From assembly GCA_964036045.1 (NCBI GenBank), contig OZ038379.1, positions 116,029,604 to 116,093,603 on the forward strand: DNA of 64,000 bases, in the 5' to 3' direction. Shown here in pieces: positions 18,425 through 61,616 of the stretch (positions are counted from its first letter, which is position 1; every line of letters starts with the position of its first letter). The DNA is from Eutreptiella sp. 'Long Island Sound 2002'. Its lineage: Eukaryota; Euglenozoa; Euglenophyceae; Eutreptiales; Eutreptiaceae. The notes beneath the pieces are model-generated. The model had not been told where the DNA came from. It searched no databases and saw nothing but the letters and a program-made list of their open reading frames with translations. A program made the position numbers and the translations under genes.

Positions 18425-18457
18425 AGTCCAGCGGGCACCAATCTTAGAACAAAGGGT

Positions 18458-19038: not shown

Positions 19039-19074
19039 TTCTTTGTAGCATTGACAATTTGGGTAGTGTTTAGC

Positions 19075-19299: not shown

Positions 19300-19353
19300 A
19301 ACCGCCCTAAATTCGAGGGGGCGGGGGGAGACGATCCTCCTTCTCGGCCGCCA

Positions 19354-20305: not shown

Positions 20306-20357
20306 GAACAAGAAGAACAAGCACCGAGTACCGGCTACCTACCAAGAGGGGGACTGG

Positions 20358-23791: not shown

Positions 23792-23853
23792 GCAGCCCTT
23801 CATGCGTTGATCCTGATTCTTTTCTACTTGCTTATCTCTGGCTTGGGCTATCC
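23792..23853 (+). repeat. End of second family 1 3' LTR
   Basis: This direct repeat matches positions 1-62 and 10459-10520 and is followed by the same spacer as the first copy. Confidence 0.78.
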
Positions 23854-26366: not shown

Positions 26367-27206
26367 TCATGAGAGCGGTCCACCAAGGTGGGCAAGGAGG
26401 TCAATGGTTTGGGTGAGATTCTGTCTCTGCAAGTAATCTCTCCAAACCTTATTGTAGGACGGTGAAAAGGTTTCAACGGGTTCCTCGGTATCCCAACCCT
26501 TGGTATAACCCTCCCGACGCACCTTGAAGAGAAGTCTCTTGCGGTGAGTACGGTGACCCAATATTTTCTTGACATTATAGGTGTCCTCCTCAAACTGGGA
26601 GGGCACTCTAGCAACCTCCTCCGTGTAATTTAGAGGCACGAGGGAGCGAGGGGAGTTGACTGTCTTCATTAGACAATCAACGTGGACGTCAACTAACCTC
26701 CGTTGGTCCACTTGAATAACATAGAGGTCGTGAGCCTTCTTGGCCACGACCTCATAGGGCCCATCCCAATAGGGGCAAGTCTTATCGCCAAGATTTTTGC
26801 GTTGGCGACAGACCCACACGCGGTCCCCTCTTGAGAAATTGGGGGACATCCTCCTCCTCTTATTATACTTATGAGCAATTGTCTCTTGCACTTGAATCAT
26901 AGCCCTACGTGCAAGAGCAATAAGCTCCTCACGCAGCTGGAAGTAGTGAGCGGCATCTTGAACATCCCCCTGAGGCTCAGCAAGAGGGGGGGTGGCCTTA
27001 GTACGGTTGTGCTTACCAAACACAATCTCGTTAGGCGTATAACCTGAAGCACCTGTAGTCTCATGCCACGCTCGTACAACGGCGGGCAAAACCTCCACCA
27101 GAATAGTGCCCTTCCTCAAGGTAAGGGCTTTAGCAACGGCAGGCCTTAGCTGCTTGCCAGTATTTTCGGCTTTGCCATTACCTTGGTGCCTACCCGCGAG
27201 ACACAT
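26367..27206 (-). CDS. Family 2 copy C integrase C-terminus and chromodomain
   Basis: This 279-residue frame is equivalent to 17585-18424. The integrase glutamate is in GNGKAENTGK. The former G10 run reads G7-T-G2 (26996-27005), which keeps the frame and changes one residue. The chromodomain has YNVKKILGHRTH and GWDTEEPVETF. Two stops (TAA, TGA) lie between this frame and the core upstream. Confidence 0.85.
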   Translation of the reverse strand: MCLAGRHQGNGKAENTGKQLRPAVAKALTLRKGTILVEVLPAVVRAWHETTGASGYTPNEIVFGKHNRTKATPPLAEPQGDVQDAAHYFQLREELIALARRAMIQVQETIAHKYNKRRRMSPNFSRGDRVWVCRQRKNLGDKTCPYWDGPYEVVAKKAHDLYVIQVDQRRLVDVHVDCLMKTVNSPRSLVPLNYTEEVARVPSQFEEDTYNVKKILGHRTHRKRLLFKVRREGYTKGWDTEEPVETFSPSYNKVWRDYLQRQNLTQTIDLLAHLGGPLS

Positions 27207-27239
27207 AGTCCAGCGGGCACCAATCTTAGATCAAAGGCT

Positions 27240-27820
27240 TTAGAAATATTGGCTCACAAATTGTAGCCCGCGGTTGGAGCATATTTCACGAGGGGGTCCG
27301 AACCTGTCAACCCAGCGCTCCATTAGCAAATTGGCCGCTCTTTTCCGCGTTAGCCCTTCATCCCTGTCTTCATGACGGAGTTTAGGATTCGGGATTGCGA
27401 TGAGGTAGCCGGAAAGCCGGCAAACACATAGGAGCATTTGGTCATAGACTTCCCCATCATGGCATGTGGAGTGGTAGTCAAACACATCAAGCATTTGGAG
27501 TCCATGGGCTCCATAGGTATAGGCATAGGGGTCATGTACCATTGCTTGCGCTTGGTGTCATGCGTGTGAATGGCACATGAGGGCCACGTTTGACATTGCA
27601 GTTCCACTGCTCTGTACAACCCCTCACCTTCCACGCCATGGTGAATCTCTTTAAAGTGTTTTTCAACACTGGAGGTAGTTAGGTGAAATGCATCGTGGTA
27701 CTCGGCCACCAAACGATGCACTAGCGACGTAGGAACACACCACCGTCCATTACGGACAAGCTTGTTATACACCAACCTCACTGCATCTTGGAAGCTCCCA
27801 TTCAAGGCGTCTTGCCACAT
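27240..27820 (-). pseudogene. Family 2 copy C integrase zinc-binding domain and core
   Basis: The HHCC-type part (27350-27820) and the core (27240-27542) are in different frames. MLLCVCRLSGYLIAI follows the first catalytic Asp (DVFDY). The second Asp is Asn in CSNRGLQFVS (complement of 27273-27275). With this change the integrase should not catalyse strand transfer, although the rest of the core is well preserved. Confidence 0.82.
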
Positions 27821-27856
27821 TTCTTTGTAGCATTGACAATTTGGGTAGTGTTTAGC

Positions 27857-28081
27857 TCAATTTATCTCAAAAACATTGGGAGAATCCTCCCCATGTATGG
27901 GAGTTGCTTTCTTGTGGGACTTCCAAGATTTTGTTATCTTGGCCATTCGCTCCGGTCTTCGAAGCTTTCTCCTTTGTTTCGTTCCCTCCCCAACTGGAGC
28001 CGAAGCCAGAGGGGTTGGATCACACGCGGGCGCCCCTTGAGCCTGGGGCGCCGCTTTAGACCTAGTAACAACGGGCGCCAC
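27857..28081 (-). pseudogene. Family 2 copy C RNase H-integrase linker
   Basis: This basic linker segment is in the same frame as RNase H upstream (TGA at 28136-28138) and integrase downstream (TGA at 27857-27859). The polyprotein was once continuous here. No domain is recognised. Confidence 0.55.
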
Positions 28082-28135
28082 AACCGCCCTAAATTCAAGG
28101 GGGCGCGGGGAGAAGTTCCTCGTTCTCGGCCGCCA

Positions 28136-29140
28136 TCATGTCCCGGCCGCTTGGGTCGTCCCATTTATGGACACATCGCCCAATGCCGCGTTAGCAGGGT
28201 ATGCCCAACAGGACAAGCAATCACCCATGGTGTTCACGGACCCCGGAATAGAAACCACATTGAGGTGGAGTTTAGAGAACAGCTCAGACCAACGTGCTTG
28301 GCGTGGGGAGTGACCCACCACGGTTTTGTGGTCCTCCGTTTCCCAAATTTCAAGGCTACAGTTGTCCGTACGGACCTCCACTCGCTTGTTCCCCACCCAA
28401 CCATGCCATTTTAGAAGCGCCGCCACTATGGCGTAGCATTCTTTCTCTCGAGGGCTCCAATTCAATTGGCAGCATGACAGCTTGCGGGAGGAAAAGGGAA
28501 GGAGGCGTGGAGCACCATGGGGACCTTCCTGTTGTACGGCCGCCGCCACTGCCCAATTACTGGCGTCCGGGCTGAGGACAAAGTCCTTATTCCCATCGGC
28601 TAGCTGGAGGGGAACAAGATCCGTAATAGCACGCCTGAGCTTCAAAAAGTCTTCCTTAGCCGAAGGATTCCATGTTAGGCCTATCTTGTTCCCATTCTTA
28701 TGCTTAGGCAAAAACTTCAACATCTCAATCAGAGGAGTAGCTATGGAGGCGTAGTTTTGGACATAGCCTGAATAATAGTTGGCGAGCTCCGATAACCCCG
28801 GGAGCTCCCGAACATTATCCGGCTTTTCCCAACGCTCAAGCACCAACATTTTCCCTGGCGTCGGCCAGCGTGTGCCATTTTCCAACACATGGCCACAAAA
28901 CTCAACCGAACAAACAAAAAAATCGATTTGGCTAACCGAAGCAACAAACTCCTCTTTTCGTAGCCTATCCAACACGGCACGTACCTCGCGGTCCTGGTTA
29001 GCCAATAGCTCTTCCTCCGTATCACCGGAGGAACAAATGATAATATCATCAATATATACGTCCGCACAATCCAAACCCTGCAAAATGTGGTCCATGGCCC
29101 GTTGAAAAATAGCGGGCCCATTCTTGATACCCATAGGCAT
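28136..29140 (-). CDS. Family 2 copy C RT palm and RNase H
   Basis: The 334-residue frame starts in the RT palm with MPMGIKNGPAIFQRAMD. It has YIDD (complement of 29045-29056) and the CSSGDTEEE that follows it. RNase H shows SPDASNWAVAAA, KECYAIVAAL and RTDNCSLEIW. A TAG at 29168-29170 separates it from the RT fingers in the same frame. This is the only copy that continues past the point where A and B are truncated. Confidence 0.87.
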   Translation of the reverse strand: MPMGIKNGPAIFQRAMDHILQGLDCADVYIDDIIICSSGDTEEELLANQDREVRAVLDRLRKEEFVASVSQIDFFVCSVEFCGHVLENGTRWPTPGKMLVLERWEKPDNVRELPGLSELANYYSGYVQNYASIATPLIEMLKFLPKHKNGNKIGLTWNPSAKEDFLKLRRAITDLVPLQLADGNKDFVLSPDASNWAVAAAVQQEGPHGAPRLLPFSSRKLSCCQLNWSPREKECYAIVAALLKWHGWVGNKRVEVRTDNCSLEIWETEDHKTVVGHSPRQARWSELFSKLHLNVVSIPGSVNTMGDCLSCWAYPANAALGDVSINGTTQAAGT

Positions 29141-29167: not shown

Positions 29168-30169
29168 CTAATTCATGGCGGTCTTAGCCCGGGACTCAGG
29201 GTGATAGGGAATTTGATCAAACCCTTTACTCAAGTCCACAATAGTGAAAATCTTGTGTTTGGATTGATTTTCCAACATGTTTTCAATGAGGGGGAGGGGC
29301 TGTGCGTTGGGCAAGGTAGCCTCATTAAGTTGGCGATAGTCCACAACGAGGCGCCATTTTCCCTTCTCCTTCTTGGGCACAATGAAACCGTTGGACGCCC
29401 ACTCAGAAGCAGGGCGGGGCTCAATCCAGCAGAGAGCCAAAAGGTCTTCCACTATTTCTTGCTCCGCCGCGGCACGCTCCCCCACCAACCGTATAGGCTT
29501 CATGGACTTGGGTTTAGCGTTCGGGTATAGGTCAAGCTTAGCAACACGGACCTTAGTGTGTTCCTGGCCCGGACGGAGACGAACCTCCCCGCCAAAAACA
29601 TCCCGCTCATAGTCCGCGAGGATGCGTTTTCTCATGAGCTCCAGCTCCGGAGACACAATAGGTTCTTGGGTGGTGACAATGGCACCGACAGGAGTAGCCG
29701 CCAACAATCGCTTCGCGCCCTTAGTTTTCCGGTAGCGTTTAACGGTAGTGGCCCTCCCACCCAATAACTCTTTTTGAATTTTCGCAATGCGTGAACGCAC
29801 GCATTCTTGTGCTTCCAAATTTTTGGGGGTAGGGTCAAGAGTAACGGGAGCGAGGCGGTTTTTATGGGTCGCCTGATATATGAGGATGCGCACCAAAGCC
29901 AAATGGTTAGGCACCCCTTCATCCTCCGACTCCTTCTCCGAGGTCACGCCCGGCTCGTCATCAGTATTCGGGTTAGAGACGGCCGGCGCCAAAACGGAGG
30001 CCACATGACATTTAGTGGCCGCCAAATTTTCCTCCGCAATACCACCATCCTCATATAGTGCAACCGTGGACCAACCCCGTGGAGGGAGGGGTGTGAGGTG
30101 GTCATTTTGATAGAGACGGGCTTCAGTCTGCGGCCCAGGAAGGTGGACCCCTTGCAAAGTAATTTCCAT
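29168..30169 (-). CDS. Family 2 copy C RT N-terminus
   Basis: This 333-residue frame holds a variable linker, then LYPNAKPKSMKPIRL, then FIVPKKEKGKWRLVVDYRQLN and VDLSKGFDQIPYHPES, the standard Ty3 RT fingers and first palm Asp. It is in frame with 28136-29140 through one TAG. Upstream, in the same frame through a TGA at 30179-30181, is the methyltransferase-like domain. Confidence 0.87.
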   Translation of the reverse strand: MEITLQGVHLPGPQTEARLYQNDHLTPLPPRGWSTVALYEDGGIAEENLAATKCHVASVLAPAVSNPNTDDEPGVTSEKESEDEGVPNHLALVRILIYQATHKNRLAPVTLDPTPKNLEAQECVRSRIAKIQKELLGGRATTVKRYRKTKGAKRLLAATPVGAIVTTQEPIVSPELELMRKRILADYERDVFGGEVRLRPGQEHTKVRVAKLDLYPNAKPKSMKPIRLVGERAAAEQEIVEDLLALCWIEPRPASEWASNGFIVPKKEKGKWRLVVDYRQLNEATLPNAQPLPLIENMLENQSKHKIFTIVDLSKGFDQIPYHPESRAKTAMN

Positions 30170-30178
30170 CAGGGGTTT

Positions 30179-30649
30179 TCACCACTCCCTATGTGTCCAT
30201 CTCGGCCCTACGACGATAGCTCGTAGTTTTTCTTGCCGAATTTTTCGAACGCAATCGGAAAACCGATGATAGGGAGAACACATCCAATACAATTCAGAGG
30301 GGTCCCCGCGAGTGGAAAAGAAATCTTCAAGCGGCGAAACCCAGCGGGTAGCTTGGGCCATTCCCGGGACCCTATTGAAGGCATCCACGTCTGGATTTTT
30401 GCCGAATTGTTTTTTGACACGTGCGGCCCAATATGGTGTGGGGCCATAGTCAGACTGAGTCCACATGGATCCATCACGCCGTGACGGTAGAACATCACAG
30501 GCAAGGGTTTGGGGAGCAAATTCAACGAGCTCCAAAGCACAAGCCCGATCCTGTACGGGGGGCACGGAGGAAGCGGTCAAGGCATAGGACATGTGCTTTT
30601 CTGGCCTCAACACGGTCAGGCGATTCGCCACCAGGGGGCGTAACCACAT
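30179..30649 (-). pseudogene. Family 2 methyltransferase-like domain between protease and RT
   Basis: The recognisable part is about 100 residues: QFGKNPDVDAFNR, then LYWMCSPYHRFSDCVRKIRQEKLRAIVVGP and W-x-x-REW. The order (D-x-F/A start, aromatic-rich middle, xPPY-like CSPY, helix, hydrophobic strand ending in P and W) parallels ELFAS...NPRF...SPDW of family 1. It looks like a decayed (N/D)PPY module. Its job here is unknown; catalysis is doubtful because the NPP core is altered. Confidence 0.55.
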
Positions 30650-31363: not shown

Positions 31364-31922
31364 AGTTAGATGGACCCACTGAGGCTGTTTCTTTCTGAGA
31401 ACATACCTATTTACATGAGCATTCAGTTATTAAGCTGAACTCTGGTAGTGAATTTCCTACTTTAAACCAGATCCAGATACAGATCCGAGAATGAACAGCA
31501 TGATGCTGCTAATCCAAGAGGGTCCTGCATGAACAGTGAAGATGAACAGTAAATCAGAGGAATGATTGAGGATGATGGTGACGGGCAGATTCTCAGAGGT
31601 CTAATTGTTCATAATCAGATCATGATGCAGAAATGACATGATGGGTCATGATGGGGCACATGAATGGCTCCATGATGGCCAGTCCTACTGAGTGGGCAGT
31701 GCAAGAGATAAAGGTCAGAACTGAACTTGGGTGATAGTAAAAGGCCCAGAAACCACAGAAACATATCTTTTTCATGTATTTTATGCTCGAAAGAGGTGTG
31801 CATATTTTTGGGTCTTTGTGTAGCCTTTTATGCCATGGACCTACAATCAGTGGTGGACTTTCATCAGCAAGTTTGATCCTGAATTTTTGCTTTGTGCTAG
31901 GGTGTAAGGCAGAAATCTTTCT
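31364..31922 (+). repeat. Element 3 5' LTR
   Basis: This is a 559-bp direct repeat of 56360-56918. It begins AGTTAGATGG and ends AATCTTTCT, so the termini are AG...CT instead of the usual TG...CA. The last T may be shared with the primer binding site. Confidence 0.9.
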
Positions 31923-33455: not shown

Positions 33456-35405
33456 TTCCTTGGCGCGGGCTCGCGATTTATTCGCACTTGGCACAGGTGA
33501 TAAGACGCCAGTTGCTCACAATACTTTGCAATGGCAAGCAGAATTACCCAATCCTTTCAAAGTATGCAAAAAACGTGAGCTATCGGCCGCTTGACGCGGC
33601 GTATCTGTCTTTCTGCTGCAGCTGAGGATATAGCTGATTACCGGAAGCCAGCCAAACTATGTTACACAAACACCGCTTCAACTGGGTGTACTTCTGTTGA
33701 TTTTGAGAAAGATCAAGCGCCGACATGGAGATCAATCAAGATCCGCATTGCCTGCGTGCCAGCGCCGAAAGACTCAAAAAAAGCTTCCGCTCTCCGTTTT
33801 AATGTTTCCAGAAGCTTGTCTGTCTCAACAGCCGCTGGATTTGGATACAAGGAGTTCCCTGATAAGTTGACTCGCAATGCCTGCCCGCCAGCGCCGTGTG
33901 ACTCAAGATGAGCTTCCGTTCACCGTCTTTTCAATGTTCGAAGCCTGTTGCCTCAACTGCCGCCAAATTTTGATAAAAAAAGTTCCCTGGTAAACAAATG
34001 ACTCGCAAGGACTGCCCGCCAGCGCCCTGTGACTCAAGATGAGCTTCCGTTCACCGTCTTCCAATGTTCGAAGCCTGTCTGCCTCAACTGCCGCCGGATT
34101 TCGATAAAACAAGTTCCCTGATAAACAAATGAGCCAGATGGACTGCCCGCCAGCGCCGTTTGACTCAAGATGAGCTTCCGTTCATCGTCTTCTGATGTTG
34201 GAAGCCTGTCTGCCTCAACCGGCGCCGGATTACGATAGAGCAAGCTCCCTGACAAACAAATGACTCGCAGGGCCTGCATGCCAGCGCCGTGTGACTGAAT
34301 ATGAGCTTCCGTTCAACGCCTTTCCAATATTCAAAGCCTGTCTGCCACGACCGCCGCCGGTTAGTGACGAGACGAGCTGCGGCCAGTAGCAACAGCCTCT
34401 ACTAAAATGTAAACAACAACGCAGCCCGTTCCTATGCGTCGCTCTGTCCCAGGTCCTTATTGGTGATCAACAACTCCATCCGCCAGCGCCCAAGATGACA
34501 GCCACCAAGTTTGAAGGCGCTGCAGTACACCATTGCAGCCAGGCATGAACGTGGACTGCCTCCAAAGCCTACATCAACCATCCTTCCGAGCACTCCACTT
34601 ACGCTGCACCATGTCCAGTCCTTCTCTCTGGAGAACTGATGACCAAGCAACTCAAGAAGTGTTTAAACTACCGCCGACTGTCCACTGCATCTACTTCTGA
34701 TCTAAATCTGAATCTGAAATTTGACTTAACACAAGAGCCCTGCCCTTTGGCTGGCAGCCCTTTAAATACGTCCTGGAGCCCACAAGAATATTCAGGTTTG
34801 CCCTCTTTTTGATCGCTATGACACCATGAATACGTGTTCAGCCTCTATATAACTTATGACAACTCAGACACATGGGTTCCTCTCCTGACACGAAGTCAGG
34901 TCCCCTGACGCCACACCTTGCAGGTGTTTGTGAATAACAATGCATTCTAATTTTCCACTATCTTTTCGCTGCTGTGGAGTATGGCCGACCCAGGGGCAGG
35001 AAACCCGGCCAACCACAGGGGCAGTACACCCCACAGTAGGCCCAGAAACACAAAAGCAAACCACAAGTTTTCCACCGCCCCTCCAGCAGTTGACTGCACG
35101 GAAAAAAACATGAAAAAACACACAGAAAGAAAAACACAGCCTGCACTCCCCAGTGCACCTGCTTCTTTCTGTGCGAGCTGAACCCAGCCTTCTGCTTACA
35201 ACAAGCCTCAGTGCAACCAATTCATCACCAAAGCCTACCAATCAATCCACACCAAGAAACCATCAGAGCCATCTTTTTCCCGTTCCTAGGCGAACCGCCT
35301 CCGTGATATATTCTGTACTCCAAGTAGTGTATATATTCTCACGAGGTCCTCCTTTGGGGGACGTCAGCCCCAGAACAAGTTGATGCGGTTAAGGACATTC
35401 AAAAA
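33456..35405. mobile_element. 1.95-kb insertion in Element 3 gag with 18-bp target duplication
   Basis: The direct repeat AGAAGACCTGTTGTCCGA lies at 33438-33455 and 35406-35423, and the gag protein is collinear with family 1 only after removing the insert. The right end is an A-run (five As, plus the A of the target). A long target duplication and an A-tail are typical of target-primed retroposition, so a SINE/LINE-like or processed-RNA origin is inferred. No open frame of a known protein is found inside. It contains a 131-bp tandem repeat and CTATATAA near 34845. Confidence 0.7.
33745..34385. repeat. Minisatellite, 131-bp period, about five copies
   Basis: The landmark AGCTTCCG recurs at 33782, 33911, 34042, 34173 and 34304, spacing 129, 131, 131 and 131. 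Each unit also holds CCAGCGCC, GTGACTCAAGATGAGC and a CTCAACTGCCGCCGGAT-like block. The first and last units are more diverged than the middle ones. Confidence 0.9.
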
Positions 35406-36303: not shown

Positions 36304-36729
36304 AGGGGTGGGCCCTCGGGAAAGAGGCTCTACGCGTGCCTGGTATCAATGGGGGAGCAAAAGTATCATGGGTTACTCGACACAGGCGCCAGTAACAGCT
36401 TAGTGGCGGAGAAATCGGTGGAGCAAGGCCAGACGCAAATGGGTAAAATTTTCGGAGTCAAGGTTGGCAACGGAGCTGTACAGCTGACAAATGGGGGGAC
36501 AGAAGGAGTTGTTCACGTTGGAGAAGAGGACATCCCCTTCTCGTTCGCCACCTTCGACACCAACGCGGTTGACGTGATCCTGGGAAACGACTTCTTTGAA
36601 GCCAACCCGCACATCAAGTACCTCTCCCTGCAAGCGCCCCACCATTTACTGGTTCAGAGACATGGGCAACTCGTGGAAGTCCCACTGAACGAGGACACCA
36701 CACCAAAACCCTCCGTGCAGGTCATCTAA
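36304..36729 (+). CDS. Element 3 protease
   Basis: The domain is in the gag frame, directly after TAG. The retropepsin site LLDTGASNSLV has DTG at 36379-36387, and VILGNDFFEANP forms the second half. Spacing from the gag stop to DTG is 26 codons, against 28 in family 1. It would cleave the Gag-Pol polyprotein. It ends at TAA 36727-36729, beyond which the same frame continues into the next domain, so that stop is probably a mutation. Confidence 0.85.
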   Translation, partial: RGGPSGKRLYACLVSMGEQKYHGLLDTGASNSLVAEKSVEQGQTQMGKIFGVKVGNGAVQLTNGGTEGVVHVGEEDIPFSFATFDTNAVDVILGNDFFEANPHIKYLSLQAPHHLLVQRHGQLVEVPLNEDTTPKPSVQVI

Positions 36730-37794
36730 GGTCTGTTGCTCAATTTAGGGGCAGACATGAAGCTGGAAGGTATGGTGGCCTTCCACGCGCAGCTCGTTCG
36801 TACTGAGAACTACAAGCTTTCGACGGAGATGAAGAGACAAGGGTTTGCGGACTTATCTTTGAAAGGAGATCCGACGGGTTCAGACTTCATTGAGCTATTC
36901 GCTTCGAAGCAGAACGCGGACTCACAATTCTACTACAACCACAAGGACAACTCCGCCTTTTGGTGCCATTGGGGGTGGCTACAAAGGTGGAAGCAGTTGT
37001 ACGCAAATCCAAGGTTCTCCGGACTCTTAAGAGTTCTGGTCAAGGTGGCGATCAACCGAGCGCGCTTAGTTTTAGTAGTACCAGAAGGGAAGAAATGGGA
37101 AAGTAAAGGAGCGAAGTGGAAAGAACTCCTCGAAAGACTGACTATCTCGAAAATCATCCTGCCCGATCTGCAGATGTACAGCCAAGATGGGAGCGAAGAA
37201 ATTTTACCGAAGCCTTCCTCGCGGACATGTATCTATCTACTGGACGGGGATACCCAACCCGTACCGATGGAAGAACTCGACCAGGAGGAGGTACAGTGGG
37301 TCACAAGGCAGAACCGGGGTCGGAGAAAAACAAAGATGCTCTCCAAATTCCGTGATCACCCTGAGGTCAAATGGGAGGAACGCGGACCTGTCGTCAACGC
37401 TCCAACGCTGGACGTGGAAACTGATAGCGAAGGAGAAGAGGAGACCTGTGCAGCAAGCACAGGCGACAACACCAGGAATCCGAGTGTGTCGACGATCCCG
37501 ATTCACAACTACGAAGGGTACGAATCAGTGAAATGGGACGATTTGGTGGAAGCGATACTACTCGGAACTGAACCTGACATACCTCCGCAACGAGGACAAC
37601 TCGATGACCAAGCCAAATGCTTACTCGCCTTTGCGTGCATGGTAGGCGACAAGACGACCCACTCCGAGAAGAAGGATCCTCAGTGGGCGAAGCCCAGCAA
37701 GGACACTTGGCCCATCGGGGAGCACGAGAAGGAGGATATCAAACAACTTCTCTTTCATCGCGTAGAACATCTACAAGAAAATCAGAAGAGATAG
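36730..37794 (+). CDS. Element 3 methyltransferase-like domain and acidic linker
   Basis: IELFASKQN (about 36892) opens the module. An aromatic stretch with FWCHWGW follows, then YANPRFSGLLRVLVK (NPRF at 37006-37017) and LVLVVPEG. The alignment with family 1 is clear over about 100 residues. NPRF replaces the expected NPPF, as in family 1, so it is a property of the clade rather than a copy-specific defect. An acidic, Ser/Thr-rich linker follows. The frame ends at TAG 37792-37794, again in frame with the next part. Confidence 0.7.
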   Translation, partial: GLLLNLGADMKLEGMVAFHAQLVRTENYKLSTEMKRQGFADLSLKGDPTGSDFIELFASKQNADSQFYYNHKDNSAFWCHWGWLQRWKQLYANPRFSGLLRVLVKVAINRARLVLVVPEGKKWESKGAKWKELLERLTISKIILPDLQMYSQDGSEEILPKPSSRTCIYLLDGDTQPVPMEELDQEEVQWVTRQNRGRRKTKMLSKFRDHPEVKWEERGPVVNAPTLDVETDSEGEEETCAASTGDNTRNPSVSTIPIHNYEGYESVKWDDLVEAILLGTEPDIPPQRGQLDDQAKCLLAFACMVGDKTTHSEKKDPQWAKPSKDTWPIGEHEKEDIKQLLFHRVEHLQENQKR

Positions 37795-38307: not shown

Positions 38308-39128
38308 CCCTGCTCTAAAGAGGACCAGGACGAGATCATGAGGCAAGTCTTAGAGCTGGTGGAAGCGAGGATGTGCGAAGCCTACAAGGACACGGAAATC
38401 CCTGAGCACTGCTTGCCGTGTTTCTTGGTGGCGAAACCTGGATCGACAGCGAAAAGGCTAGTCGTCGACTATCCAAAGCTGAACAAAATGATCAAACTGC
38501 ACGCCGGCAGTCTCCCTGTGATGGAAAACTCCATCGAAACTGCCGCGTCGTCCAAGATGGACAAAAGATCAGGGTTTTGGCAAGTCGATTTGACGGAGCG
38601 TGCCAAGGAGTTGATGGCGTTTTGGACACCCAACAGAAGGGTGTTCCGATGGCTGGTCATGCCCTTTGGTATCGCCAACGCCCCCGCGCTGTTCCAGGAG
38701 TTGGTGAACCACGTGCTCACCATCCTCAAGCAGTGACCCGCAGTCCAGGCGTTGCTCGAACGAGGAGCGGTTGCCGAAGCTCACATCGACAACGTGCTGC
38801 TAGGCACCAACTCCATCGAGGACCACCTGCTGTTGCTGTCGGAGTTTTTCGACGTGTGTGTGGAGCAGAATCTCTGTATCAAACTAGAGAAATGCGAATT
38901 CCTCAAAACTGAGCTGGATTACCTTGGATTCCGAGTGGGAGACGGTCACTGGGGACCGTGTGAGGACAACCTGAAACCACTGATGGATTTTACGATCGAT
39001 GGAGTCAAGCAGAAAGCCGAAAGGGTCAAGAAGATAAGGCAATTTATCGGAGGTTGCAACTTCTACAGGCGCCACGTGAGGAATTTCACTGAGTCCTCGG
39101 CTATACTGACCGACCTCATCAAGAACAA
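38308..39128 (+). pseudogene. Element 3 RT (interrupted by Element 4)
   Basis: RT fingers and palm are collinear with family 1: CFLVAKPGSTAKRLVVDYPKLN, MDKRSGFWQVDL, FGIANAPALFQE. A TGA at 38734-38736 replaces an Arg codon. The catalytic box is HIDN (38782-38793) where family 1 has HIDD, so the second catalytic Asp is lost. The thumb region ends at ILTDLIKNN, where Element 4 is inserted; the frame resumes unchanged at 52306. Confidence 0.88.
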
Positions 39129-41490
39129 TGAAGCCGGTTCGGACCCCCGTGGCCATCTTTGGGTCACTTGGGGTGTGTATCTATGTGCTGGCAAGCCGCC
39201 ATTGGCTGATATCATACTCTCCTGTCCACCTGAACTTACCCGATGTGATAGTGTGATAGGTTTGGCCATTCCGGCTACGAGCGGCCATATTCAGTACCGA
39301 GGCGCCGCCAGCGGAGATTTATATATCAGAATATCAGGAATCAACAGGGTTTTATTATCATAATGTTTCCGTAATTTTTCAGCCTTTCGTTCTGATGGTC
39401 AATGTATCGGCGACTGCCAGTTGGCTCGCGATTTTGCGTGAGCCGATTGGTTAACTGTTATTTCCAGATATTTTGGCGGAAACCCCGATGAAGGGTCAGA
39501 TTTCATCAGTAAAGGGTTCGTTGCTTCCGCAATTTTCTAAATATGCACTCGAAATTTTATTCAGAATTTTTCGCGATGTCGAAATCGGATTTTCGACTTC
39601 GACATCGCCGCACTTGATTTGGTCTTCTTCCAGTGGTCATACTCTTTTCCCTATGCCCGAATCAGGTTTCCCTTATACTTGCCACCCATTTGACTTGGAA
39701 ATACAAGGGAAACAAAAGCGAATCGTGGGACCACTTTGAAGGGCCATATCTACGCGCGAGTGTGATGAAAGAGAACAAAGAAGGTTGGGTTGCAAGCGCC
39801 TCAGTCTCAACTTAATTCAGGAAGCATCAAACGCCTTTGGTGTGTACACATGCTAGGTAGAGCAAGAGATAATGGTCAAGAGGGTATAAAGTGATATATA
39901 ACTCTTGGACTGTGCAACCGAACATTTTATTGCGACTTTCGAGTGTACCGCATGAGTGTTGGGGTTGCATAGCAACTTACCTTGGGTTCCTACGTATTTT
40001 TAACGTGAAGTTATGTCCATGGAGGGACATGGCATATCATGGTGGGAGGCACATTTTGAGGGTATGTGTTATATGCATGGTATATGTTTGATATGCTCAC
40101 GCCCATGTTATATATCTTCGTGTGGCCGAAGAGATGGGGAGTCATACGTGACAAGGGCCTTGCCCATGTCCCAATTGTGGAATTCAAAGCGCTAGACTAA
40201 GTCTACCGCATATGTATTGCTCATGGTATGTTTGGCAAGGAGATCCCTGAGTGCACTCCCATTTTCACGGGGCATGTAGATATGAGTGGCGAAGGTATCT
40301 CCATGCGCCTGATTGGGGATCCAAGTGGGGGAATTGTTCGCAAATGGTTCCAATCATTCGTGTATTGAACCATGAGCGGATATCATGGGTGAGCATAGAG
40401 ATATACTATCATGACAACTTTGTATTTGGTCATTTTTTCATGTTTTTGACCTCAATTTTTGCTCATTTTTGCGTTTTGTGTACTCACCTGGTCAGCTAAC
40501 AGCAAGAAGCCTATGGGGAGTCGAACATGGTATGTCGTTCATATGTTGGCAAATGCTTTGGAGTTGAACACCACCATATGCCGGATTGTGTACTCCATTT
40601 GGCTTGGCGCACGAAGGAACACAAGAATTGGTCTCAAGATCATGGGCTGACTTGGGCAGTGCGTGGCGCCCATATCCGAAGGGGTTTCGAGGGTAAAGTG
40701 GGGATGTACATGGGCATTGGCCTTTGGTCTCAATCCTCCATGAATGGTAGACTCTCATTCCATGCATGCTTTGAGCCTACGGATACGTGGTAACTTCAAT
40801 TTTGAGCATATATTTGATATATGGCCAATATGGTGTGAATTGGCAGTTTTTTGGCATGTTATGAGTTCAAACTCATGGGGCATATCTCCAAGCCCATTCA
40901 ACTCCAAGTCCAACCAAGGTTATGTCAGGGTAGGGCATGGTCCTGAGTGCCACCCTAGGCCATGACACGCCACCCCTCCCATTGGGCTACGATTTGGGGG
41001 CTTGGCAGTGAACACATTTTTGGGGTTTATGTAGTGACTTTTGATACATGGCATTTAACCATCTTATTGGACTGGGTTCAGGGCATCATGTTGGTGAGTC
41101 AAGGGAAGGTCTTGAGTCCAGGGAATGAGGGGTCTATGGCTGTGATTGTGTAAGTTTCCATCTTTCCCCAACTTTGCTTTTTTTGTGTTCATATGCCAAT
41201 TTCAGGGCTTTCTTCCTTGGTGCAATTCTTGTACATGCCCGCCACCGTGGGAAGACCGGTGTGCTGAACGGAAGCCCGCATCGTGGATTGGATTGTGAAT
41301 CGGGTTATTGCTGCATTTGTGGGATCTGATTGCTGTTCAGGGTTGAAGGAGGATTGTATTCTCGATTTTCTATATTTTTGGATTTTGGACCCGGGACTTT
41401 GAGAAATGCAAGCATTGATCAGGAGCAAAGCAGCAGGGATTACAGGCGGAAGGGGCACAGCGGGGGCCGGTCCTGGTAGGGACCTTCTCT
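39129..41490 (+). repeat. Element 4 5' LTR
   Basis: It runs from TGAAGCCGG to TTCTCT. A TATA-like TTTATATA lies at 39318-39325. A hairpin with 10-bp arms GCGATGTCGA (39573-39582) and TCGACATCGC (39599-39608) is conserved in the 3' LTR. No gene is evident in these 2.36 kb, except that the gag frame is already open in the last 85 bases (from ATG 41406). Confidence 0.93.
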
Positions 41491-41491
41491 A

Positions 41492-41503
41492 TGGTAGCAG
41501 AGG
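41492..41503 (+). promoter_or_regulatory. Element 4 primer binding site
   Basis: TGGTAGCAGAGG begins one base after the LTR, complementary to the initiator tRNA-Met 3' end. It is translated as part of the open gag frame (GSRG), as also happens in family 2. Confidence 0.92.
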
Positions 41504-41567
41504 CGTACCTGCTGCCCCTACCTACCGCCGACCCGGGGACTTGGGCCCTTATGAGCCCTGCCAAAGT

Positions 41568-44510
41568 ATGCCCCGGGTGCGTATTGTGGACTCGGTGGAG
41601 ACCACGCCGGGGAGTGAAGCCAGAGAACGACCGAGACGTTCAAGAGCATGGCGAACTCCGGAAGTTGAAGCCCGAAGAGAAGAACGACATTCGGGAAGAG
41701 GAGGACGTGACATGGAGGACCTGGTCTCCATGTGTGAGCGTCGCTGCCGAAAGGCATGCAACCTCCGTTCCGCCGCGGAGGACCCTGATGAGGCCTGCCA
41801 TTCCGGCAGCAATGGAGGACGGGCCCGGCGCTACCGGAAGCGCGGGTCACCCAAGTCCGCGGCAAGGGACGCCGCGGCTATGGACACGGACCCCAGCCCG
41901 GTCAGGCTGTGGGAATCCGAGGGGCACTCCGAGGGCTATCCGACAGTCTACGAGCCACCTTCCGAGTCGAAGATGTCCGCGCCGATCGCCAGGGCGCATA
42001 CGGCCCCTGAGCCCGCCCTGAAGCACGATGCCGAGGGCTTGGAGAGGCCAGCCAGGGCCCGGACGGCACCTGTGCCCCGGCACACGGGACCAGAGACGGA
42101 CGCCATAGGCGATACGCCTATGGGTGATGAGTCTGAGGTGCCGGGAACCGCGGGATGCGCTGAATCCGGCAGAAAGCACGCTGAGTGCCACTGCGAGCAC
42201 GTGTCCTTCCTCATGGGCAAGTACCCGAAGATGGGGATGGACGCCATCGTGCATCGCCTTGACCGCCTGGACAACGCCAAGGACGGTCTAGAGGAGGATG
42301 TCGCGGGGATCCTGGACGACCAGTCGGCCGCGGAGAAAGACATGGTGCAGCTGCGAGCGGAACGGGACCGGTACTGGGAGAATCTGGAGCTCGCCCTGGA
42401 GAAGCAGCAGCGAGTGGTGGACAGCCTCCTCCACGTGGTGGAGGACATGTTGGGACGCCTGAAAAGGCTAGAGGAGCTACAGCCCCTCGCCTCGGGTCCG
42501 GAGCTCCCGGCAAAGCCGGCCGCGGCAGAGCTGGTGGAGCAGGTTAAGACCTTCAGGAGCGCCATGGATAAACCCATGGGCGGTCCTGCAGAGGCCCCCT
42601 ACGCGCCTTCGCGTGTTGACCCGGGTGCGCTGCCGTTTGTTCCCAGGTTCAGCGAATCCACAATGCTCGGGGAACACACGGCACCGGCTGGGTCCATGCG
42701 GGAAGGGCACGTAACCACGGACCCGAGGAGCCTGACGGTACAGATGTCCCATGCCGCCCAGAATGTACCGATCACGACGAATATGGTAGTTTATGCGGAA
42801 GAGGAGATCCAGAGCCAGACCATACAGGGGCGAACCATGGGAAGCGCCGACGGACATGGTCGAGGTCATCCAAGCGGAAACCTGTGGGCGAAGGACCCCA
42901 ACACGGGGATATGGACGGCCGACGGAGCAAGTACTTCCCACATTCCAAACCCCATGGATTCAGGCCCAACTGGACCGCACTCCATGGAGGAAAGGGATGT
43001 ACGGGGAGTGTACTCACACCCCCCGGCCACAGGTGGTATCCGTCTCGGTGGAGTGGTGGCTGGGGACGTCGGAGATGCCATCAGGATTGACGACCTCAGG
43101 GGAATCAAAATCCCCTACTATGATGGCAACCCCTCCAACCTGGACGACTTCATCCTGGATTGGGAGGACTTCGCCGAGGAGGTCGTCGGCGAGATGCGGG
43201 GAGCGCCGCGGGACAAGTGGGTATGCCGGACATTCCCACACCGGCTGGCGCAGGACCTGAAGGAGGAGCTGCGGGATCAGATCCGGGAAGGATTGATCCG
43301 TACGGAGCAGGCCTGCCTCCAGTGGTTGGAGGATGAGGAGCGGGTGGACGCTCCGAATCAGAAGCTGGAGGACTTGTGGTCCATCCCGCTGCCGATGGAC
43401 CGCGGTGAGTTGCGGGTCCGGGAGTGGAACCGGTATCTGCGGAAGTACCGCAGATGCCTCAAGCTGGTGGAGGACTGGAACGAGGCCAGCGAGATCCGCC
43501 ACGTCCTGAAGGACGTCCTCCCCGGCAACTGGAAGAGACGAGTGGAGGACGAGGAGAAGAAGCGAGCAAAGAAGCGGGTGGCGGTGAGGATCATGGCGGC
43601 GGAGGATACCAATGCGGGTATCATGGAGTTCTTCAGGAGGAACCTGGGCGAACCCAACCGGATGTTGGGACTGAAGAACGCCGTGTACGTGGAGGTGTTC
43701 GGAGACTCCATGCGGCAAAGGTTGCTGCGCCTCAACAACGTGGAGTGGAGGCGCGGGGAGCCGCTGAGGATGCAAGTCATCTTCGCCCGCATGAGCCTTG
43801 ACGAGATCGTGAAGTACATCACGGTGGAGTTGAAGCTCAATGCGAAGAACGAGGCTCACGTGCAGGATCGACATGGTCATGGACAACGAGGCCACAGAGA
43901 AGACCGCCATCATCGGGAGATCCAGGAGGACACGGCCAACTCCGCGGAGGATGGTAGTGGAAGTGGCCAAGACCACTGGTCCCGGGAGGATCACGAGGAG
44001 GCCCATTTCTTCGCGTTTGTGGCGCACAACGTGAGGGACCATGGGCAGGATCGTTCCAGATGGAGCTGGGTGGGACCCAAGAAGGGCAAAGAGCCAAGGA
44101 GGATCGGGAACCCACCACTCTCGTTCCGAGAGTACAGGTCTCAGCACGACGGGTGCTGGGTCTGTTATGGCAAGGGAAACAACCATGCACACGACCACCG
44201 TCAGTGCAAGGTGTATGAGGCGGGCAAGAAGGCCTACTTCGCTGCCCACCCCGAGAAGAAGCCAAAGGAGCAGCGGATTTCCGATTGGAAGGCGAAGGGC
44301 GGAGACAGGGGAAAAGGCGAGGGCAAAGGCCAAGGAAAAGGCGGAGGAAGAAGCTATGGTGGTGGACCTGGCCAAGACCATCGAGTGAGGTCGATCGAGG
44401 AGGTTGCTGAGGACATGTTGAGGACGTTGGAGGAACTCAAAGCCCAGCAACGTGATGGACTAAGTCCTGGCGGATCGCAGCCGGAAGGGGCTGCGGGAAG
44501 CCAGGTCTAG
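41568..44510 (+). CDS. Element 4 gag
   Basis: The start is placed at the first ATG after the primer binding site (MPRVRIVDS). The frame is open further up to ATG 41406 inside the LTR. An Arg/Glu-rich disordered leader (to about 42190) precedes a long coiled coil (about 42230-42480). The capsid starts near 43106 (IKIPYYDGNPSNLDDF) and continues to about 43700. A Cys/His motif CWVCYGKG...HDHRQC (44154 onward) fits an expanded CX2CX8HX4C knuckle. A GKG-rich basic tail ends the protein. Protease follows in the -1 frame, with 55 bases of overlap (44456-44510). No canonical slippery heptamer was seen there. Confidence 0.88.
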   Translation: MPRVRIVDSVETTPGSEARERPRRSRAWRTPEVEARREERHSGRGGRDMEDLVSMCERRCRKACNLRSAAEDPDEACHSGSNGGRARRYRKRGSPKSAARDAAAMDTDPSPVRLWESEGHSEGYPTVYEPPSESKMSAPIARAHTAPEPALKHDAEGLERPARARTAPVPRHTGPETDAIGDTPMGDESEVPGTAGCAESGRKHAECHCEHVSFLMGKYPKMGMDAIVHRLDRLDNAKDGLEEDVAGILDDQSAAEKDMVQLRAERDRYWENLELALEKQQRVVDSLLHVVEDMLGRLKRLEELQPLASGPELPAKPAAAELVEQVKTFRSAMDKPMGGPAEAPYAPSRVDPGALPFVPRFSESTMLGEHTAPAGSMREGHVTTDPRSLTVQMSHAAQNVPITTNMVVYAEEEIQSQTIQGRTMGSADGHGRGHPSGNLWAKDPNTGIWTADGASTSHIPNPMDSGPTGPHSMEERDVRGVYSHPPATGGIRLGGVVAGDVGDAIRIDDLRGIKIPYYDGNPSNLDDFILDWEDFAEEVVGEMRGAPRDKWVCRTFPHRLAQDLKEELRDQIREGLIRTEQACLQWLEDEERVDAPNQKLEDLWSIPLPMDRGELRVREWNRYLRKYRRCLKLVEDWNEASEIRHVLKDVLPGNWKRRVEDEEKKRAKKRVAVRIMAAEDTNAGIMEFFRRNLGEPNRMLGLKNAVYVEVFGDSMRQRLLRLNNVEWRRGEPLRMQVIFARMSLDEIVKYITVELKLNAKNEAHVQDRHGHGQRGHREDRHHREIQEDTANSAEDGSGSGQDHWSREDHEEAHFFAFVAHNVRDHGQDRSRWSWVGPKKGKEPRRIGNPPLSFREYRSQHDGCWVCYGKGNNHAHDHRQCKVYEAGKKAYFAAHPEKKPKEQRISDWKAKGGDRGKGEGKGQGKGGGRSYGGGPGQDHRVRSIEEVAEDMLRTLEELKAQQRDGLSPGGSQPEGAAGSQV

Positions 44511-46450
44511 AGGAGCCCCCACGGGAGTGGGACCTCGGAGGTCTCTCCCCGAAAATCAGTGGAATCCCAGAGAAAGCGAAGGCACATCGGGTGCCGAAGA
44601 AGGCTCCAGAAGAGCCAAAACCACTGAGCTTCGCCACCCCCACCCCCTGGAGCGTCCTGCCAAGGGAAGTACATGTGGGTACGGGACATGGCAAGAAGGA
44701 AGGAGCGACCACGGAGAGCCCCGTGGACGGGCAGGACCAACCCAAGATCTACACCATCCGTGACCATACCCTTGAAGTCCTGATGCACCCAGACGTGCTA
44801 GAGTTGCATGCCGTGAGAGTCGTCCATACACCTCATGGCGACGAGCGGCAGTTGCACTTGAAAGTGCGAGTACGGTGCGGACGAGAGGAGACGGTGGTGG
44901 ATGTGTTAGTGGATACGGGTGCCCAAGTGAGCCTGGTCCGGAGAGGGTTGTTCAAGGAGGAACTCCTGCAGCCCAGCCGGAGACCGGTGCGCCTGAAGGT
45001 CGCCAACGGAGGTGGCACCCATGAGGCCACTATCAGTATGGAATTCTGGGAACATGAGCGCTTGAACCGCCCTGATCAGGCGAAGAGAAGCACTCTATCC
45101 GGGAAATTCTATGTGGCCGACATTACAGATTGGGATATGATCATGGGGTATGACTTCATGGTGACAAATGCCATTGGAACCCTTCCCCATCGTGCAACGC
45201 TGGTCCGGGAGGATGATGAATGCCTCACATGGCTGTCCACGGACTATGCATGCGGATCATCCCAATGGAATGCTGAGGAAGAGGATCGGATCGTCCAAGC
45301 GGTGCAAGCTGTGGGTGCCAAGTCCAGAGGAGACCGCGGACTTCAGCTCACGGAGTATGGAATCGCGCCGCAGGTGTATGCCAGGATGATCCAGACGCTG
45401 GGAGCCGAAGCGCCCGAGACGGACGTCTTCGCTTCCCGGGATGCCCCACTTTTGCGGAAGTGTAGGAGGCATTGGCATCGAGGAGACTCAGCCTGGCACA
45501 GGCATTCGGGTTTGAAGGAGTGGGGACCCATGTATTGGCATGGCTCCCTGGACAATACCAGACGTACGGTGGAGAAGATCATCGCGGATAGGGCGAAAGG
45601 GATCCTGGTCATAACCGGCATAGGATCCACCCCATGTCCGCTGGAGGGTCTCAAGTCGACGCTGGACTCCATCACCCTGAACGAGATGTTATTCGGGCCA
45701 GAGGAGGAGTTGTTCGTCGACGCCAAGGGTGTATCAATGCCCTCCCCGGGTCAAGCGTGGGGTACCAAGGCCTTCCTGGTGGATGGGGCGCAAGCCCAGC
45801 CCACGGGTGATGAAGCATTCATCCGTAGGGTGGAGGCGGTGCCCATGAAGGTCATGTTTGAGCCCAAGGAGGGGACGGATCAGCCTATTGATGGCATTGA
45901 CGTCCTGTCCCACGCCGAGATCGACGACGTCGTCAACTACATGCGGATGGGGATGCACGACCTTGTGGCAGCCAAGAGAAGGCGGGTCATGGTCACATCT
46001 CCGCATTGGTGGGATGACAAGATGTTGGTCACCGGCAAGTACGAGAAGGACGAGTTCGTGGCGAGGGTCATGGATCACATCGCGGACCAATACCATGGTC
46101 CGGTTGGGTCGGACCCACCAACATGGGATTTTCCAAGAATTGGTGCCGCTGGCGACAGTCACCAGCCCGAGGCCGCAAATTTTCGAAAAATATCGGTGGG
46201 AGTCGAGACCCACGACGATGAAGACGGCATATCGGACGAGGAGAAGTCGGACTCGGACCCAGAAGAGGCCTATACCGCAGTGCGGTCGGTAGTATCAATA
46301 CCGAAGCAAGCGGCTGAAGAGGCTCAGGAGAACCCGAAGGTCGCCGAGCTGAAGGAGAGACTGATCAATGCCTATCCGCGGCTATTCAGTGGCGTCGCCA
46401 ACAAGAACCCTCCAGATCGTGGGAGGTTGGTACAGCGAAGATCAAGCTGA
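44456..46450 (+). CDS. Element 4 protease and methyltransferase-like domain
   Basis: The frame opens at 44456, inside the end of gag, and could be entered by -1 frameshifting. Retropepsin has VLVDTGAQVSLV (DTG at 44912-44920), then MIMGYDFMVTNAIG. The later module starts at TDVFASRDAP (about 45420), continues with GPMYWHGSL, and has a hydrophobic strand KGILVITGIG. This is the same architecture as NPRF in family 1, but the NPP core is lost. It ends with GRLVQRRSS at TGA 46448-46450; RT continues in a frame shifted by one base near 46430. Confidence 0.8.
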   Translation, partial: WTKSWRIAAGRGCGKPGLEEPPREWDLGGLSPKISGIPEKAKAHRVPKKAPEEPKPLSFATPTPWSVLPREVHVGTGHGKKEGATTESPVDGQDQPKIYTIRDHTLEVLMHPDVLELHAVRVVHTPHGDERQLHLKVRVRCGREETVVDVLVDTGAQVSLVRRGLFKEELLQPSRRPVRLKVANGGGTHEATISMEFWEHERLNRPDQAKRSTLSGKFYVADITDWDMIMGYDFMVTNAIGTLPHRATLVREDDECLTWLSTDYACGSSQWNAEEEDRIVQAVQAVGAKSRGDRGLQLTEYGIAPQVYARMIQTLGAEAPETDVFASRDAPLLRKCRRHWHRGDSAWHRHSGLKEWGPMYWHGSLDNTRRTVEKIIADRAKGILVITGIGSTPCPLEGLKSTLDSITLNEMLFGPEEELFVDAKGVSMPSPGQAWGTKAFLVDGAQAQPTGDEAFIRRVEAVPMKVMFEPKEGTDQPIDGIDVLSHAEIDDVVNYMRMGMHDLVAAKRRRVMVTSPHWWDDKMLVTGKYEKDEFVARVMDHIADQYHGPVGSDPPTWDFPRIGAAGDSHQPEAANFRKISVGVETHDDEDGISDEEKSDSDPEEAYTAVRSVVSIPKQAAEEAQENPKVAELKERLINAYPRLFSGVANKNPPDRGRLVQRRSS

Positions 46451-46944
46451 AGCCAAACCCGAAGATCTATCGTCATCGGGAGTACCAACTTCAGGGCGAT
46501 CGGGCCGAGACCATGAAGAAGCTGTTGGCCGAGTTCATTGAGCGGGGATGGATCGAACCCTCCGACAGTGAGTGGGCCAGCCCAGCCTTCATCCTGCCCA
46601 AGAAGGAGAAGGGCGAGTGGAGGTTGGTGGTGGATTACAGGGGTTTGAACGAGCAAACCGAGCACGACTCGTACTCGCTTCCCCTGATCGACTCCATCCT
46701 CCAAAAGCAACAGAAAAAGCGGATCTTCACGGTGTTGGACCTGAAACACGGTTATCACCAGATGCCGCTACACCCGGACTCCAGGCCCTGCACAGCGATG
46801 TCAACGCCGTTGGGGCCCATGCAGTGGAAAGTGGTGCCCATGGGCGCCAAAAATGGCAACGCCGCTTTCCAGCGCATGATGGAGGTACTACTCGGTCCTG
46901 TCCGGGACTGTGCCGACCCCTTCGTGGATGACATCATCATCTGA
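46451..46944 (+). CDS. Element 4 RT fingers and palm
   Basis: After the shift, KIKLKPNPKIYRHREY leads into WIEPSDSEWASPAF, FILPKKEKGEWRLVVDYRGLN, VLDLKHGYHQMPLHPDS and VVPMGAKNGNAAFQRMM. The catalytic box is FVDD (46921-46932). The stop TGA (46942-46944) falls where family 2 has the Cys of IIICSSGD. The downstream frame is the same, so a Cys-to-stop mutation is the simplest view. Confidence 0.9.
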
Positions 46945-46959
46945 TCCGGCACGGAGAAC

Positions 46960-49482: not shown

Positions 49483-49550
49483 AGAAAAAGAATATTTCTT
49501 TGGATGTCAAGGACGTGTTGGTCCATTTGGTTGCTGCTGTAGCACCGTAA
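49377..49550 (+). CDS. Element 4 chromodomain, displaced by a frameshift
   Basis: In the frame one base off from integrase, 57 residues read KPYKVRWKGF, SRDSWEPPGIFVPRYTTVW, then a Lys-rich helix, ending at TAA 49548-49550. YKVRWKGF and DSWEP are the classic chromodomain signature, and the upstream half (TAEKILADK) is in the integrase frame. A single base indel at or near 49372-49376 therefore splits the chromodomain. The protein-level annotation of the integrase frame alone would miss it. Confidence 0.88.
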   Translation, partial: KPYKVRWKGFAASRDSWEPPGIFVPRYTTVWMDYLKKKNISLDVKDVLVHLVAAVAP

Positions 49551-49931
49551 TGGATCCCCCTTGGCATTTTTGTTTGTTTCTGTGCTCGGGAGACGGGTGA
49601 GGGCGTTCATCCGGGGATTTTTGGGCCTTGATTGGCCATCTACCCCCTTCACTCGATCTCCACATATATATTTCATTGTGGTATACTTATTTAGGTCGAC
49701 CGACGACGTTTCTCTATCCTTGATCCCCTTGGTCCATGTTGTAGATCAAGAGGAGACCGGATATGGCGTAGGGCGCTGGGTATCAGTGTCCTCACCCCTC
49801 CCTTGGGGCGTGGGGGACGCCTACGACGTGTGTGGGGCCTCCATGTGTCCCTGGGACATTGGGGGGGGGTTGGAGCCCATTGGGGTCCTCCTGTCTTCTC
49901 TTCAATGACTTCCGAGCGGTAACAATGCTCT
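49551..49931 (+). other. Element 4 3' untranslated region
   Basis: There are 381 bases between the chromodomain stop and the polypurine tract, with no gene. CATATATATTT (about 49664) may be an AT-rich signal. Confidence 0.6.
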
Positions 49932-49942
49932 GAGAAGGGGGG
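49932..49942 (+). promoter_or_regulatory. Element 4 polypurine tract
   Basis: GAGAAGGGGGG lies directly against the 3' LTR start at 49943. It is the expected primer for plus-strand DNA synthesis. Confidence 0.88.
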
Positions 49943-53909: not shown

Positions 53910-53978
53910 AGGACCAGAGAACGTGAGAACACACGCAGCAACCGTGGGCGCAAACCCGTCGAATACCGAATCGAAGAC

Positions 53979-61615: not shown

Positions 61616-61616
61616 T

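Follow-up and report, generated by a model that had tools for sequence, protein, structure and literature searches.

The closest described relatives of the system examined here are the DIRS1-like retroelements, whose methyltransferase domain can, according to the accessible part of one source, be detected with the Pfam model PF05869, or Dam (PMC3783388); the reason for its presence in DIRS elements is described as unknown in the available portion of another (PMC3266345). As the accessible parts of these two papers present them, the DIRS elements have the methyltransferase located after RNase H, possess a tyrosine recombinase and lack both a protease and a DDE integrase (PMC3783388, PMC3266345). 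Other retrotransposons carry a C5-methyltransferase (SymbioLINE-Dnmt, SymbioDIRS-Dnmt3 and KnitGypsy-Dnmt3); from the available text these are also cases of a DNA methyltransferase taken up by algal retroelements, one of them a Gypsy element, but their cytosine-C5 enzymes are structurally unrelated to Dam (PMC5890265). The Ty3/Gypsy elements of orchids that carry an m6A RNA demethylase likewise have an extra domain acting on N6-methyladenine; this demethylase, however, is a 2-oxoglutarate-dependent dioxygenase (2-ODD) encoded in an additional reading frame and, to judge from the paper's title and accessible part, was recently acquired (PMC9289625). Here, we analyze a stretch of 64,000 nucleotides (the window) from the euglenoid alga Eutreptiella sp. 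'Long Island Sound 2002' (contig OZ038379.1; C2:116029604-116093603 of the 2.28-Gb assembly), in which several Ty3/gypsy-type retroelements encode a module between protease and reverse transcriptase (RT). With high probability this module is an N6-adenine methyltransferase domain of Dam type (PF05869-like) and a standing, inherited part of the polyprotein Pol; its variants either keep a catalytic motif or have it remodelled. Both the domain and the element class are known; their combination and the place of the domain in Pol are not found described, since no account of a Dam-type domain in Ty3/gypsy elements turned up in the searchable literature, a scope that leaves out most subscription papers and Repbase.

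The module occurs in four retroelements of the window, called family 1 (F1), family 2 (F2), Element 3 (E3) and Element 4 (E4). A reading made earlier from the DNA letters alone (the sequence-only reading) had noticed a block common to these four segments and had assigned it to three retroelement lineages; the window in fact holds four. To detect it, a profile was made of nine rows representing five lineages located elsewhere in the genome (LA, LB, LC, LD and LE), no window sequence being included, and it was compared with the 1001 reading frames of at least 40 amino acids (aa) in the window. It matched exactly the four named places and one continuation: F1 at 3196-3558 (plus strand, E 3.3e-29), E3 at 36883-37248 (plus strand, E 3.4e-28, within the reading frame 36730-37794), E4 at 45350-45790 (plus strand, E 2.1e-10) and F2 at 30182-30466 (minus strand, E 2.5e-10), the C-terminal part of the last being found beyond an in-frame stop at 30026-30172 (minus strand), in the next frame (whole-frame E 2.5e-5). 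The next-best real window frame had an E value of 0.26 and the best over 20 shuffled sets one of 0.15. Because the profile singles out these four frames, the block is, on sequence grounds, one homologous domain at all four places. In BLAST comparisons the F1 and E3 modules are 35% identical over about 120 aa (E 3e-21) and those of E3 and E4 are weakly similar (23%, E 2e-6), whereas the F2 module was not detected (best E 0.34). The linker that follows the E3 module shows, at residues 184-216 of frame 36730-37791, a weak match to phrog_20798 (E 0.0021) that is probably due to chance.

Direct Pfam and PHROGs scans of the window frames revealed no methyltransferase family, and none of the window modules reaches the curated PF05869 cut-off of 28.1 bits (E3 scored 13.9 bits; F1, E4 and F2 had no match). 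They can be placed in the Dam family because of the profile of their sister lineages. When the genome was searched with PF05869, 149 of 150 scored sequences matched (3813 candidates; best E 8.2e-9), and by a manual count at least about 105-110 of the 149 listed matches lie above the curated cut-off; as only 150 candidates were scored per search, this and all other genome match counts given here are lower bounds. Thirty Dam loci were read, ten returned with the genome search and 20 further regions, and they fall into LA (the ten loci plus 8 regions), LB (2 regions), LC (1), LD (4) and LE (5). Whole frames exceed the cut-off in LA (L040, 42.1 bits; L041, 42.2; L048, 41.5; L085, 32.1), LB (L079, 36.4) and LC (L083, 29.4), but remain below it in LD and LE (L086, 25.3; L088, 24.8); when modules were tested alone, the scores were 28.8 for LD, 27.8 for LE and 25.3 for E3b, a subfamily of E3 at 52% identity. 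The same stretches are matched by the NCBIfam model for phage N6-adenine methyltransferases (LB 3.2e-9, LA 3.1e-7, LC 5.5e-6, LE 0.0048), always below its equivalog cut-off, and this model had no match to the window E3 and E4 frames. In comparisons of hidden Markov models by hhalign, of the kind that the sequence-only reading had suggested, 16 element rows aligned with nine phage Dams at 95.8% (E 7.2e-9) and F1 plus E3 aligned with LA/LB/LC at 96.9%. Since F1 plus E3 taken directly against phage Dam reached only 10%, the tie of the window copies to Dam goes through the sister lineages. The likeness to the phage enzymes (PF05869, TIGR01712; for example, the Dam of phage T1) extends to fold and motif order, with three sister lineages above the Pfam cut-off, but the phage proteins are free-standing, and the window modules have altered motifs and, taken alone, fall below the family score. 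No C5 cytosine methyltransferase family was present among the Pfam matches at E up to 10.

Could the fold be an unrelated one, that of a tether, an additional RNase H or a dUTPase, for example, whose likeness to a methyltransferase motif is due merely to chance? Accessory dUTPases are known in retroelements, and most window copies by themselves lack a Pfam match. Profiles and structural models nevertheless agree on a methyltransferase, and the unrelated fold, refuted as far as both can do so, retains only a very remote probability. The AlphaFold2 (AF2) models of the E3 module (pLDDT 84.0, pTM 0.81) and of the E4 module (pLDDT 71.9, pTM 0.73; built without phage rows) both have a predicted class-I methyltransferase fold, the Rossmann-type outcome that had been proposed as a check. 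Their best viral matches in Foldseek searches of BFVD, where models stand on both sides, are phage N6-adenine methyltransferases (E3 4.8e-7, E4 9.8e-8, probability 1.00), and among the structure-match rows listed there is neither an RNase H nor a dUTPase, either of which had been named beforehand as a refuting result. A Foldseek search of the PDB with the E3 model found nothing at 0.001, and a profile search of PDB sequences with the alignment A1 found no methyltransferase (best E 0.29). Taken together, sequence and models make it most likely that the domain originated as an adenine methyltransferase.

Among solved structures, both modules have as their first-ranked neighbour the enzyme PCIF1/CAPAM (PDB entries titled 'cap-specific adenosine methyltransferase'); proteins of the PCIF1 type from giant viruses rank after the phage Dams in the viral matches. 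A link to the core of this mRNA-cap m6Am methyltransferase by sequence was dropped, the PCIF1 rows having 9-18% sequence identity and, for 11 rows, a single weak profile match (E 0.38), and the relation is kept as a structural likeness with no claim of family membership. Whether PCIF1 and the retroelement domain go back to one ancestor is a question that these structural neighbours raise.

The sequence-only reading had placed the module ahead of RT in elements with a Ty3/gypsy integrase, and the Pfam order, the long terminal repeats (LTRs) and the integrases agree with this. By position, the module precedes RT in F1, E3, E4 and F2. In E4 the order is protease, module, RT, RNase H, H2C2 and rve: the protease (44894-45019, plus strand; PF13975 0.0014, under the cut-off) is in the same frame as the module, the first part of RT follows at 46597-46941 (plus strand; RVT_1 3.6e-21), and the integrase core is at 48394-48726 (plus strand; rve 1.8e-6, 28.6 bits, under the cut-off of 32.6), preceded by H2C2 (25.8 bits; cut-off 25.5). 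Its 5' LTR (39129-41488, plus strand) and 3' LTR (49943-52303) are 97.0% identical, and a likely 5-bp target duplication, AACAA, is found at 39124-39128 and 52306-52310, the right copy two bases past the aligned LTR end. E4 thus has the protease, RT, RNase H, DDE integrase, LTRs and short target duplication by which Ty3/gypsy elements are recognized, with protease and rve scores below the cut-offs. No chromodomain was seen by Pfam in the E4 frame 46945-49479.

E4 is nested in E3 (39129-52303 within 31364-56918), so that the RT of E3 (38737-39128, plus strand; RVT_1 3.2e-7 for the frame 38737-39360) ends at the E4 5' LTR and the remaining E3 coding sequence lies beyond the 3' LTR. Directly upstream of the E3 module, with in-frame stops between, a protease-like stretch (LLDTGASNSLV ... 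VILGNDF; 36304-36726, plus strand) was recognized by eye in the translation. After E4, the end of RNase H and the integrase of E3 occupy 52701-53906 on the plus strand (3dlr 8.5e-9; PFV integrase rows 2.3e-8; Ty3 Gag-Pol 1.9e-7), a stretch with no Pfam match at 0.01. A chromodomain follows at 54333-54434 (plus strand; PF00385 1.6e-8, 34.8 bits against a cut-off of 25.1; residues 142-175 of frame 53910-54563), and E3 therefore has at its integrase end the feature that marks a chromovirus. A 559-bp direct repeat at 31364-31922 (plus strand) and 56360-56918, 96.6% identical, probably represents the E3 LTRs, the first being the likely 5' LTR. In the remaining two elements fewer domains were located: F1 has a protease in one frame with the module (2695-2973, plus strand; PF09668 5.4e-4, 20.5 bits, under the cut-off of 26) and RT at 4727-5155 (plus strand; RVT_1 2.1e-27), and the first part of the F2 RT is at 29174-29380 (minus strand; RVT_1 1.4e-11).

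Outside the window the same arrangement is found within single frames. In L040 the Dam match (residues 495-564, 9.2e-11) is followed by RVT_1 (755-937, 1.1e-25), and Dam also precedes RVT_1 in one frame in L041, L079, L083 and L085; by Pfam, it stands before RT in all five lineages LA-LE, the Dam scores of LD and LE whole frames being below the cut-off. The closest solved relatives of the L040 RT are 4ol8 (1.3e-29), the Ty3 RT, and 7q5b (1e-28), named Ty3 Gag-Pol. The comparison with DIRS elements is made concrete by a protein, P0130, from another source: in a search of the protein database (which is not restricted by species) with the LB module at E up to 1, two proteins were returned, the near copy P0129 and P0130 (E 4.7e-5). 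In P0130, RVT_1 occupies 132-294 and Dam 535-632 (3.8e-8), with an RNase-H-like stretch recognized by eye between them, which is the DIRS order; it is called DIRS-like by this domain order alone, in one row. The modules of P0129 and P0130 are 42% identical over 79 aa and have D-x-FAS..N, NPPF and P-x-W in common. The resemblance to a DIRS-associated module that the sequence-only reading had remarked upon is thereby upheld, as homology by sequence to the domain that ends a DIRS-ordered protein. The euglenoid elements nonetheless differ from DIRS in having the module before RT, together with a protease, a DDE integrase, LTRs and, in E3, a chromodomain. Another search of the protein database returned only close LC copies.

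The phylogenies bear on whether the module descended with its host element. Trees were built with IQ-TREE for RT and for the module, with ten rows in each, and both split {F1, LE, E3, E3b, LD} from {LA, LB, LC, E4, F2}, with a support of 100/100 for RT and 91/95 for the module, and both pair F1 with LE and LA with LB; E3 and E3b are not paired on the RT tree, and the remaining forks are weak. Since this main division is common to both trees, the domain has probably been passed down together with the element. A series of separate captures, in which each lineage obtained the domain from a phage, a bacterium or a giant virus rather than from one common ancestor, would fit with the strong divergence of the E4 and F2 modules, and endogenous giant-virus pieces in Euglena gracilis encode methyltransferases, as the accessible part of one report has it (PMC12455990). 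The position of the module in Pol is, however, the same across the lineages tested, the rows have a C-terminal block in common, and the main split and two sister pairs are shared by the trees; repeated capture is accordingly highly unlikely.

If the domain was inherited as a unit, its catalytic motif was not equally well preserved. The motif (N/D/S)PP(F/Y/W) is altered in all four window modules, to NPRF in F1 and in E3, YWHG in E4 and CSPY in F2. Among the ten lineages or subfamilies seen, six keep NPPF (E3b, LB, LC, LE), NPPW (LD) or NAPF (LA), and the four of the window are altered, F2 counting here as CPPY: the CSPY reported earlier is correct for the window copy, but the two F2 copies read from 1658-aa frames (L099 and L100) both have CPPY, and so CSPY is a change in one copy. 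Single-copy variants exist in LC (NQPF in P0121, with NPPF in P0126 and P0127) and in LE (NPPY in L097). The altered forms belong to large families. For F1, 150 of 150 scored sequences matched, from 17757 candidates, and NPRF was found in all 30 loci read, the window copy included, several of them in frames of about 1643 aa. For E3, 150 were scored from 31676 candidates, and both copies read elsewhere in the genome (frames of 1702 and 622 aa) have NPRF; both fetched copies of E3b have NPPF (1754 and 1674 aa). For F2, 150 were scored from 6508 candidates, many in 1658-aa frames. E4-type proteins were taken as the best 120 of 262 database proteins at E up to 1, of which 78 fitted the motif pattern and the other 42 were dropped; 65 of the 78 have MYWHGS and the other 13 depart from it, but a PP motif occurs in none of them. 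With the loop gone, it is very likely, on present sequences, that catalysis has been lost in E4.

The arginine of NPRF had been regarded as a substitution shared by F1 and E3. A single clade of the two NPRF elements is, however, rejected by both the RT tree (p-AU 0.00012) and the module tree (p-AU 0.000235), and because of this NPRF must, judging from the trees, have had either two independent origins or one with subsequent reversals. The Arg codon is AGG in both NPRF forms and the corresponding Pro codon is CCT in LE and E3b, so that NPRF is not a single-base slip from the codon of its cousins. These same observations can be read in favor of a module that is active in all lineages, with the Arg tolerated or even useful. 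The motif retains its Asn, its first Pro and its Phe, NPRF stands in every F1 and E3 copy read, and the recurrence of one codon that is more than a single step from CCT is unlike plain decay. On the opposite side, Pro occupies the third position in the other compared lineages except E4, the motif has vanished altogether in E4, and the accessible part of a study of PCIF1 states that disruption of its NPPF lowers activity (PMC6318281). Activity throughout therefore seems unlikely, although for the NPRF modules considered by themselves the residues kept make both an active and an inactive state possible.

Rates of divergence argue on whether the window modules are on their way out. Between F1 and LE the module is 0.52 identical, the surroundings 0.25-0.47 and the RT part 0.80; between E3 and E3b the values are 0.51 for the module, 0.31-0.35 for the linkers and 0.70 for RT. 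The ratio of nonsynonymous to synonymous change (dN/dS) is 0.27 and 0.26 for F1 against two LE rows, 0.25 for LA-LB and 0.30 for F1-E3, with dS near 2; for close pairs it is 0.22 in LD, 0.58 in LE, 0.36 in E3 and 0.38 in F1, and 5 of the 13 pairs were saturated (two E3-E3b pairs, F1-E3b and LE-LD, for which no ratio could be computed, and LE-E3b with a dS of 26). The end branches of the module are long relative to those of RT in E4 (2.03 vs. 0.50), F2 (2.14 vs. 0.45) and F1 (0.74 vs. 0.16). With the disappearance of the E4 motif, such branches are what one would expect of a passive relic, a folded spacer without a selected role. That the window modules are no more than this is nevertheless rather unlikely: copy numbers are high and open frames long, the module is better conserved than the linkers, the F1-LE dN/dS of about 0.27 was obtained at a dS near 2, and the E4 model retains the predicted fold. 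Nor does rate follow the motif cleanly, because the module branch is short in E3 (NPRF) and long in E3b (NPPF); the notion that motif-losing lineages evolve faster was consequently reduced to a tendency, which E3 and E3b contradict.

We thus favor a scenario in which a Dam-type domain settled in Pol between protease and RT and was passed on with the element. In the lineages with NPPF, NPPW or NAPF the domain would bind S-adenosylmethionine and methylate adenine in the element's own nucleic acid, acting in cis on cDNA or RNA, an activity that we regard as quite possible while stopping short of calling it probable. The likeliest substrate would be the new cDNA inside the particle, which would be marked or protected ahead of integration. 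Self-methylation of cDNA by the C5 enzymes is discussed in the available text of one paper, along with analogous functions that adenine enzymes might have (PMC5890265), and an antiviral role is discussed in the accessible part of another (PMC6338049). In the window lineages the catalytic loop would have been remodelled (NPRF twice, YWHG, CPPY), and the fold kept as a nucleic-acid-binding, cofactor-binding or structural part of Pol; catalysis has probably been lost or changed in them, most surely in E4. Large families and a recurrent Arg suggest use of the module and not mere decay. That a methyltransferase domain was converted more than once into a selected part of Pol that is non-methylating or acts differently, while its cousins keep the writer form, is a tentative proposal and on balance doubtful.

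Several further features of the window and the genome were recorded. Besides three F2-type segments (11658-15772, 16318-20305 and 24989-29087) there is a 4.2-kb segment (6972-11202) repeated at 20304-24535 with about 95% identity, and a 267-bp piece is inverted between copies (11200-11466 vs. 24981-24715); together they are a local duplication of older insertions. Upstream of the E3 gag, three 131-bp tandem units (33949-34341; 100/88/74%) possibly lie in the E3 leader. None of eight long minus-strand frames at 56784-62518 has a Pfam family at 0.01; they may be open merely by chance, on the strand opposite an old element, or be part of an unknown one. Elsewhere in the genome, the best rve matches (3.6e-20) come from contigs only 28-47 kb long (C1004, C1334, C1460 and C2124) and may represent contaminating insertion sequences of bacteria. 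Light-harvesting proteins are coded as very long head-to-tail polyproteins, in frames of up to 6122 aa (G000, C23:19070551-19075362, and others). The spliced-leader pattern of Euglena gracilis has 2990 exact matches in the assembly and its reversed control none; a dinoflagellate spliced-leader pattern had no match in the assembly, and a dinoflagellate host was rejected on that account in favor of a euglenophyte as the most likely one.

A domain of the DIRS type is now seen in another class of retroelement and at another place in Pol. The elements themselves provide natural variants of the catalytic loop, E3 against E3b and F1 against LE, and the role of the domain is therefore testable by comparing natural copies. 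Annotators, too, gain a name for some of the many unclassified repeats in such genomes, which in the published 2.37-Gb assembly of E. gracilis amount to 32.7% of the genome, as given in the accessible part of that paper (PMC11252322). If the conversion of writers into remodelled forms is true, a single genome would offer writer and pseudo-writer retrotransposons as naturally matched pairs.
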